This document shows, one piece after another, positions 5,131-41,883 of a DNA stretch of 64,000 bases. The DNA comes from an uncultured Draconibacterium sp. Lineage in GTDB: Bacteria; Bacteroidota; Bacteroidia; Bacteroidales; Prolixibacteraceae. Both the position numbers and the translations under genes were made by a program. How positions within the stretch are numbered: position 1 is the first letter of the stretch; each line of letters begins with the position of its first letter. The stretch covers positions 227,001 to 291,000 of the forward strand of contig NZ_OY776414.1 of NCBI RefSeq assembly GCF_963675585.1, read 5' to 3'. Under the pieces are notes generated by a model. The model did not search any database, was not told the DNA's origin, and saw only the letters and a program-made list of their open reading frames with translations.

Positions 5131-5913
5131 ATGGAAGACCTTCAGAACAAATTCTACTCCTCCATTTCTACCTTTTATTCCGAAATATTTCCGTATAATC
5201 CAATGCAGCTGAATTTTGTGCAGGCCTGCGTTGGAAAACTACACAATAAACATATTCTCGACATTGGTTGCGCTACCGGAGAACTGGCATTTCAACTGGC
5301 AAAAGCAGGATCGAATGTTATTGGTATCGATTTAAATGAAGACCTGTTAGCTAGTGTTGTCGGGTCAAGCGGAATCCAATCCGCTGATTCCTCTGCACGC
5401 GAACCGGAATTCGCGTTGCCTAATCCTAAATTCCAAAAGCGGAACATGCTTGAATTAAAACAAGATTTTCAAGGCGGGGAATTTGATGCAGTGTTGTGTT
5501 TTGGAAATACGCTTGTGCATTTAAATTCGGACGAAGAGGTTCTTGAAATGTTCGAAGGTGTGAAAACAGTAGTAAAACCCGGAGGGCAATTTTTAATTCA
5601 ACTATTGAACTACGATTATATTGTTGGAGAACAACGAAGTGAATTACCCCTGATTGATACGGAGAATATACGTTTTGTGCGGAAATACAAGTTCCCCGAA
5701 GATGGGGAACACATTCTTTTTCAAACCGATCTGGAAATAAAAGCGGAAAACAAAACGGTATCGAACGAAACCACTTTACTGGCACTAAAAAGTGCTAAGT
5801 TGACAGAACTTCTGGAAAGTGTCGGATTTAAAAACATTCAGCTTTTCGCCAACTTTAAACAGGAAGCTTTTGGTGGGAATCACATTCCATTGGTTGTAAG
5901 TTGCCAGAATTAG
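5131..5913 (+). CDS. class I SAM-dependent methyltransferase with in-frame repeat insert
   Basis: This 260-residue protein has the class I methyltransferase fold. Motif I is ILDIGCATGELAFQLAKAG (residues 50-68), the acidic end of strand 2 is VIGIDLNEDLL, and motif IV is FDAVLCFGNTLVHL. The substrate is unknown. Residues of about 78-100 do not fit the fold: where family members continue directly from the helix after strand 2 to strand 3, this protein has a Ser/Ala/Pro-rich stretch encoded by a palindromic repeat (5362-5430) that resembles the one just downstream of the gene (5923-5998). The insert is a multiple of three and preserves the frame. The insert lies in the loop before KFQKRNMLEL, where fold disruption would be limited. 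Confidence 0.85.
   Translation: MEDLQNKFYSSISTFYSEIFPYNPMQLNFVQACVGKLHNKHILDIGCATGELAFQLAKAGSNVIGIDLNEDLLASVVGSSGIQSADSSAREPEFALPNPKFQKRNMLELKQDFQGGEFDAVLCFGNTLVHLNSDEEVLEMFEGVKTVVKPGGQFLIQLLNYDYIVGEQRSELPLIDTENIRFVRKYKFPEDGEHILFQTDLEIKAENKTVSNETTLLALKSAKLTELLESVGFKNIQLFANFKQEAFGGNHIPLVVSCQN
5362..5430 (+). repeat. palindromic element inside the methyltransferase gene
   Basis: GGGTCAAGCGGAATCCAATC continues as CGCTGATT and aligns closely with GGGTCTTGCGGATTCTAATC at 5923. The second half, GCGAACCGGAATTCGCG, resembles the second arm of the downstream element. It contributes about 23 codons in frame. The boundaries are approximate. Confidence 0.65.
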
Positions 5914-5922
5914 CTCAATTAT

Positions 5923-5998
5923 GGGTCTTGCGGATTCTAATCCGCCATTTGTCCTTTTCTCTTAAGAAAAAAATCGCGGATTGGAATCCGCCAAACCC
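5923..5998. repeat. long inverted repeat / probable terminator
   Basis: Arms 5923-5945 and 5976-5998 are inverted copies of each other with about four mismatches. Each arm also contains its own palindrome: GCGGATT-CT-AATCCGC and GCGGATT-GG-AATCCGC. It sits between the convergent methyltransferase and PepSY genes and could terminate both. Confidence 0.75.
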
Positions 5999-8936: not shown

Positions 8937-8952
8937 TGTTAAGGTGAAAGAA

Positions 8953-8998
8953 ATTCAGCAGGTGACTGAATAAAACATTGGAAAATCATCTGCTGAAT
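8953..8998. repeat. hairpin between nrfA and the porin gene
   Basis: ATTCAGCAGGTGACT pairs imperfectly with ATCATCTGCTGAAT. The left arm is identical over 15 nt to the stem of the hairpin at 25635-25680. It may reduce read-through from nrfA into the porin gene. Confidence 0.65.
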
Positions 8999-25631: not shown

Positions 25632-25634
25632 ATA

Positions 25635-25680
25635 ATTCAGCAGGTGACTGCTTCAATAATTTGAAAGTCACCTGCTGAAT
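25635..25680 (+). terminator. perfect 15-bp hairpin after the aminotransferase gene
   Basis: ATTCAGCAGGTGACT / AGTCACCTGCTGAAT around a 16-nt loop; the stem matches the left arm at 8953-8967. The T tract is poor (ACTTCCTTATT). Confidence 0.7.
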
Positions 25681-41335: not shown

Positions 41336-41731
41336 TTAAACAATTTCTTCAAGTTCGAATTTGAACACTTTTTTTAAAAGATGTCGAAAAAAATATAATG
41401 TTATATAATAGGGAATTAGCACAAGTAATGATGCAAGGCCCGCGTAGAGTTCGTTGCCGGTAATTTCAAGAGCAACAATCAGCGTTCCCAGTACCAGAAA
41501 AAACGGAATAACATATCCCCAGATGACTGCGGCAAAACCTTTCGATTGTTTAAAAACAACATTTACCTGTTGTCCAACCTTGTATTCTCCGCTTACATCG
41601 TTTATTTCAATCACTTTATCCTGAAAGTCGGATACGGTGCAGGCACCTTGTGCATGACATGTTGAACATGCCGATTGACTTACGATGTTCACCAGTAACG
41701 AAGTGCCTTTTACTTCGGTTACAAAGCCCAT
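41336..41731 (-). CDS. rseC: SoxR-reducing system RseC-family protein
   Basis: This 131-residue membrane protein has a cysteine cluster CSTCHAQGACTVSDF near residues 22-36 and two helices (AAVIWGYVIPFFLVLGTLIV; LYAGLASLLVLIPYYITLYF). RseC-family proteins accompany Rnf/Rsx operons, where they help keep the complex or SoxR reduced. It is the first gene of the operon, with rnfB directly following. A spacer of about 150 bp separates it from the Kef-type antiporter. Confidence 0.85.
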   Translation of the reverse strand: MGFVTEVKGTSLLVNIVSQSACSTCHAQGACTVSDFQDKVIEINDVSGEYKVGQQVNVVFKQSKGFAAVIWGYVIPFFLVLGTLIVALEITGNELYAGLASLLVLIPYYITLYFFRHLLKKVFKFELEEIV

Positions 41732-41883
41732 ATGTTTAATGTCTGATTCCGTAATTGCCTGTTTTTGCTATTTCGAGATTGCAAAACTAGATAAATATTC
41801 GAATCTCGATGTGCCAGAAAATCACTTTTTCTGAAAATGGTTCAATTTAGAAGTAGTCTAATTTAGTATATCGAACCTTTGTT

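Follow-up and report, generated by a model that had tools for sequence, protein, structure and literature searches.

A REP-like palindromic pair lies in frame within a methyltransferase gene of Draconibacterium and belongs to a repeat family associated with RAYT genes

The window, meaning the whole 64,000-nucleotide stretch of DNA that was analysed (positions 227,001 to 291,000 of contig NZ_OY776414.1, uncultured Draconibacterium sp.), carries a methyltransferase gene whose reading frame is occupied over 20 codons by a pair of hairpins, and a second repeat of the same family lies just past the stop codon of this gene. The features are as follows.

5131..5913, + strand: SAM-dependent class I methyltransferase, 260 amino acids, host of the insert (open reading frame, Pfam, model fold)
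5362..5421, + strand: in-frame REP-pair element, 60 nt or 20 codons, encoding residues 78-97 (GSSGIQSADSSAREPEFALP) (covariance model R3, E = 1.2e-7; R2, E = 2.3e-8)
5362..5365, + strand: left foot, GGGT (sequence)
5368..5385, + strand: hairpin 1, AGCGGA/TCCGCT (sequence, fold)
5398..5415, + strand: hairpin 2, CGCGAA/TTCGCG (fold; in relatives, both partners of pairs have changed)
5418..5421, + strand: right foot, GCCT, degenerate (the other six carriers have ACCC)
5923..5998, + strand: second family copy, intergenic, 9 nt past the methyltransferase stop and ahead of a convergent gene (R3, E = 5.2e-15)

The two hairpins of the in-gene element are separated by a 12-nt spacer, and the element folds better than shuffled versions of the same strand (z = -3.1; 4 of 300 shuffles were as low). 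The initial annotation had drawn the palindrome as a 23-codon segment (5362-5430), of which the first 20 codons are indeed the element, but the final 9 nt, at 5422-5430, belong to the host gene. It had also described a close DNA match between this segment and the downstream repeat. While the two copies share a common plan and fall into the same family (R2 and R3), their full-length identity is only 58%, so neither looks recently copied from the other.

The host protein has all the marks of a methyltransferase. A Pfam search of the 5131-5913 product returned methyltransferase domains above the cut-off (PF13847, PF13649, and others), and these models align across the insert in a frame that runs uninterrupted through 5362-5421. 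In a structure model comparison, the predicted fold matches solved methyltransferases. The model, based on an alignment of seven sequences, has a mean pLDDT of 79.9, with residues 70-97 below 50 and the remainder confident, and it places residues 70-97 in the segment that links the helix following strand 2 to the strand beyond, in agreement with the position first proposed for the insert. The element thus probably adds a floppy loop to the enzyme, and the open frame suggests that residues 78-97 are translated. No relatives of the methyltransferase were found among viral contigs, and no phage records resembling window positions 5300-5480 were found.

The element is one member of a dispersed repeat family. 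When up to two mismatches were allowed, GCGGATTNNAATCCGC occurred four times in the window against 0.26 expected, a count that none of 100 shuffles reached, and the pattern was found 37 times genome-wide on the forward strand versus twice for a reversed-pattern control. By blastn, the 69-nt segment matched only itself in its own genome, and the downstream element (E ≤ 10) matched 15 places, mostly as fragments. Since the arms vary, sequence search alone misses the family, and covariance models were therefore used, the E-values of which are rough. The training set of the first model, R1, includes the in-gene copies of the window's genome (G000) and of G069, so R1 provides no independent evidence for those two inserts. 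R2 was built from 13 rows without methyltransferase copies; these rows include two copies located within the broken RAYT gene of G010 or between its fragments, one of which entered the model in both orientations. R3, built from nine copies that all lie outside open reading frames of at least 100 amino acids, served as a clean test in its place.

At the methyltransferase site, R3 recovered the inserts of G072 (1.6e-18), G069 (7.4e-12), G073 (4.2e-11), G079 (2.4e-10), the window's genome, and G082 (2.1e-5), and it missed the decayed copy at the same site in G080. R2 picked the same six inserts, with E-values from 1.6e-17 to 5.8e-5 for the other five. Further copies, the existence of which the initial annotation had made a point to be checked, are present in both the own and related genomes: R1 matched 18 distinct places in the own genome at E ≤ 1, and R2 had matches at E ≤ 1e-6 in 14 of the 37 genus genomes. 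These 14 comprise eight genomes plus six of the seven carriers (all but G082), although the matching rows may include the in-gene copies themselves. Most family copies have a GGGT/ACCC foot, with GGGA/TCCC in some relatives. The claim that a palindromic repeat lies in frame inside the methyltransferase is therefore borne out by the open reading frame, the covariance-model matches, and the Pfam models that span the element.

We also observed REP pairs immediately beyond the 3' end of the gene, as at window 5923-5998, in G010 (L014 2284-2340; R3, E = 1.6e-6), in G076 (L217 1440-1495; 1.9e-9), and, more weakly, in G068 (L214 2235-2290; 7.5e-4). In these three genomes, the methyltransferase has the downstream pair but no internal copy.

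The methyltransferase gene was detected in 32 of 37 genus genomes (E ≤ 1e-40). Of the 30 loci retrieved, 26 were readable at the site (G091 and G081 were not extracted, and G042 and G074 were cut short): seven carry the element, 18 lack it, and one (G088) has a different short insertion. The seven carriers are G000, G069, G072, G073, G079, G080, and G082. Judged by length only, the matches of G091, G081, G042, G074, G078, and G063 (729 to 735 nt) are as expected for empty genes. In a family-wide set of 35 rows, which includes some genes in duplicate and from which L029 was left out, the insert is confined to the window and L004; the latter, from a Draconibacterium MAG, is by its length and position the same contig as G069:C47. 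Four genomes (G010, G064, G081, and G085) have R2 matches elsewhere and a methyltransferase without the insert, G081 by match length only. The initial expectation that orthologues would lack the 23 residues thus held insofar as most are empty, but the net gain over empty orthologues is 14 residues rather than 23, since ~6 host codons next to the insert are lacking. For the same reason, a clean insertion is not seen.

The ends of the inserts are partly conserved among the carriers. Six carriers have ACCC as their right foot, and G000 has GCCT; at the left end, five have GGGT, G069 has AGGT, and G082 has lost the foot, a pattern which implies that the ancestral insert probably had both feet. In six of the seven carriers, the right junction is the same, with the element followed by codons for N/T-P and K/Q-F; G082 differs. 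The left junctions differ in G073 and G080.

All of the in-gene copies outside the decayed G082 are open and have lengths that are multiples of three (60, 60, 60, 72, 81, and 72 nt; 6 of 6). Elsewhere, this was true of 14 of 57 copies, or 12 of 53 when four copies touching a RAYT gene or a doubtful reading frame were set aside, and ~15% of random insertions of the 57 copies would remain open and in frame. The in-gene lengths are not independent observations if the seven copies descend from one insertion; even in that case, later length changes still kept the frame.

The family is associated with RAYT genes. The own genome encodes a RAYT at G000:C4:3468948-3469814 (L061/L081) that scored 87.6 bits against NF047646 (cut-off, 80) and 81.5 bits in a second search, and family repeats flank this gene on both sides and also sit inside it. 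Its product has 289 residues, ~70 more than its insert-free relatives L086 (218) and L102 (219), and the extra part is repeat encoded. The repeats nearest to the gene (CCGGATT.. and GCCGATT..) are related to, though not identical with, the methyltransferase copy. Six of the 13 RAYT loci scanned contain in-frame REPs (L081 from the own genome, L085, L087, L090, L093, and L094), five do not, and L082 and L083 are unclear; the scan left out L092 and L104, which were aligned, and L084 and L088 (stop in gene) were unaligned. In other genera, the same linker of related RAYT genes also contains in-frame repeats, which in each case resemble those flanking the gene concerned. Within the genus, the RAYT of G073 (L184 10843-11577; 76.9 bits, just below the cut-off of 80) has one REP inside, and G010 has a broken RAYT gene that is both flanked and interrupted by the same repeat family. 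As a separate observation, the G073 gene ends within the REP at 10816-10873 of L184, which provides its last codons and stop. PF01797 proved a poor route to these genes, as it finds IS200-type transposases with other palindromes; NF047646 finds the RAYT of interest.

Other RAYT-like genes of the own genome, which score under the family cut-off, also contain palindromes. In L285 (1145-1172; G000:C4 about 393644-393671), a perfect GTAGAGACGCAATGCATTGCGTCTCTAC palindrome of the GTAG...CTAC form lies in frame between the HuH and Y motifs of a gene that scored 55.6 bits, below the family cut-off; this placement is as described for subclass 2.4 in PMC6006769. In L286 (1197-1235; G000:C1 about 41696-41734), a third RAYT-like gene has an in-frame palindrome with an 18-bp stem and similar palindromes on both flanks.

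Most family copies lie outside genes. Of the 18 R1 places in the own genome, 17 were inspected: one is in the methyltransferase, three are in the RAYT gene, two are in doubtful reading frames (L118 and L130), and 11 are in no open reading frame of at least 100 amino acids. A survey of 67 places in six other genus genomes, which omits the weaker matches of L170 and L184 (E > 1e-6), assigned three to methyltransferase genes, one to a RAYT gene with an open frame, and five to short reading frames of a repeat cluster, leaving 58 in no reading frame of at least 100 amino acids. Among these 58, two are in or between matched parts of the broken G010 RAYT gene and one overlaps the end of the G073 RAYT gene. 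The reading frames of 101 to 141 amino acids around the L153 REPs, the 131-amino-acid frame of L118, and the 256-amino-acid frame at the weak match L130 are regarded as spurious or doubtful. Among the best matches drawn from 21 genomes, only two host gene families were hit, the methyltransferase and RAYT.

We consider it highly probable that a REP pair was inserted into a tolerant loop of the methyltransferase and kept in frame, most likely moved by a RAYT, with its hairpin arms later changing together in part. On this reading, a REP pair with GGGT/ACCC feet would have entered the loop region in the REP-bearing part of the genus, and a RAYT of the G000:C4:3468948-3469814 type would most likely have moved it as single-stranded DNA, as the association of such genes with the repeats suggests. 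Part of the later change would have affected both arms jointly, with one arm serving as template for correcting the other or with other REPs as replacements. The insert would have been kept because it happened to be open, a multiple of three in length, and located in a tolerant loop, and its effect on the enzyme may well be near neutral.

Whether the loop received REP sequence once or several times is a question on which the evidence divides. Template switching copies a mutation in one hairpin arm to the other during replication, and a single ancestral insertion that was inherited, spread or lost by gene exchange, and altered by such arm-to-arm copying with no fresh insertion strikes us as quite plausible, if a little short of an even chance. 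The right junction shared by six of the seven carriers favours it, as does the PFOR tree, in which the six carriers represented fall into one supported part of the genus; in addition, the G077 methyltransferase groups with other genomes than its PFOR does, which suggests gene exchange. However, neither the methyltransferase tree (AU P = 0.03) nor the PFOR tree, built by a quick method from 34 genomes without G069, which had no PFOR match (P = 1.5e-38), unites the carriers as a clade, and in the latter they are interleaved with the empty genomes G010, G077, G085, G071, G068, and G076. Loss by simple excision is an unlikely explanation for this pattern, because the empty genes among the carriers retain the full ancestral loop length, and the differing left junctions of G073 and G080 also count against a single event. 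The interleaving instead favours the possibility, which we hold more tentatively, that REP sequence reached the same loop repeatedly, through insertion or because other REPs of the genome replaced what was there. Consistent with this, the in-gene arm types differ (GAATCGGAATTC versus GGTTCGGAAACC), and both types also occur in copies outside the gene; moreover, the best match of five of the seven in-gene copies is a copy from elsewhere rather than another in-gene copy, in a test that used 16 hand-picked copies in both orientations and so favours outside matches. Yet independent hits would not readily give the common right junction unless they were site specific, and no target motif was identified in the empty genes. 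A stronger form of repeated arrival, in which the loop is a live docking site where RAYT-mobilised REPs repeatedly replace each other, leaving species-specific hairpins that preserve pairing, so that the REP system acts as a source of variable loops, kept in frame, for host genes and transposase genes alike, seems to us unlikely.

Selection on the hairpins as an mRNA device (pausing or stability), or on a useful peptide, is still less probable, despite the behaviour of hairpin 2. Every cell of this hairpin is a standard pair (100%), and three of its six pairs are changed on both sides among four distinct rows, a level that only 8 of 500 shuffles attained; this count was made without G080 and G082, in which the hairpins are decayed, and without hairpin 1, which has insertions in G073 and G079. 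A measure based on further pair types was nevertheless reached by 121 of 500 shuffles. The fold is clearly better than shuffles in G072, G069, G000, and G073 (z = -5.5 to -2.9), but only weakly so in G079 (z = -1.7) and G082 (z = -1.2), and it is absent in G080 (z = 1.3); the hairpins of G080 and G082 have decayed while the gene stayed open. Across six carriers, each of the 15 pairwise comparisons gave lower similarity for the insert peptide than for the remainder of the protein, and with the low-confidence structure prediction this leaves the earlier description of the segment as exapted into protein unsupported. Ordinary variation in loop length that is palindromic by chance can hardly account for the element. 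Loop lengths do vary in the wider family, as in L013, which has six extra residues and no apparent REP-like element, but the R3 search contradicts this explanation, with independent model matches down to 1.6e-18, and the feet are retained in relatives.

In-frame REPs in host genes and in RAYT genes are already known, and the proposal that elements entering genes in this way are a new kind is not supported. Di Nocera 2013 (PMC3733652) lists REPs within genes of several species, the CGTC repeats in R. conorii genes being identified there with RPE-4 and RPE-6, and Quentin 2018 (PMC6006769) describes REPs in frame within tnpA-REP genes of subclass 2.4, which is abundant in Cyanobacteria and Bacteroidetes. 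The present family resembles REP/RAYT systems in its dispersed short palindromes, which are mostly intergenic and flank RAYT genes, although its 18 places in the own genome are fewer than the 100 or more usual for REPs, and its foot is GGGT/ACCC rather than GTAG (GT[AG]G) or CGTC; for E. coli TnpA-REP, PMC8266576 describes GTAG-guided cutting. By motifs only, the transposase resembles subclass 2.4 of PMC6006769 in being a Y1/HuH enzyme of Bacteroidetes with NHVH- and YxxNNP-like motifs. The palindromes are likewise short, arranged here in inverted pairs with feet at both ends, and REPs also lie in frame inside the transposase gene. In the present RAYT group, however, the in-frame insertions precede the HuH motif, whereas those of subclass 2.4 generally lie between HuH and Y, according to that paper.

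The intragenic GTAG/CGTC REPs of PMC3733652 are also in-frame REP pairs of ~20 to 30 codons in ordinary genes, possibly forming flexible loops. They have another tetranucleotide tag, and here one site is filled in seven genomes by differing REPs. That paper reports no association of the CGTC repeats (including RPE-4 and RPE-6) with a transposase gene, in contrast to the association of the GGGT-footed family with RAYT. The likeness in principle to Rickettsia palindromic elements that was first suggested is fair, in that a palindromic repeat lies in frame in unrelated genes, although only two host gene families were found here. Nothing on intragenic REPs of Bacteroidota was found in the available parts of PMC12306157 or PMC2817692, and no paper on Draconibacterium palindromic elements or a GGGT-footed family was found in the open-licence PMC literature. 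Two features are new: the feet read GGGT/ACCC instead of GTAG or CGTC, and a single gene site holds REP sequences that vary among carriers that are not monophyletic, some base pairs differing in both partners. These observations add to the Bacteroidota a REP-like family with GGGT feet and RAYT genes, together with one host-gene site where related genomes allow the empty, filled, and decayed states to be compared, making it a practical case for studying how REPs enter genes and how hairpins stay paired inside an open reading frame.

Finally, another inverted repeat, AATTCAGCAGGTGACT...TGCTGAATT, occurs at window positions 8952-8998 and 25634-25680, where the two copies are 83% identical, and a palindrome resembling it lies at L085 2418-2448.
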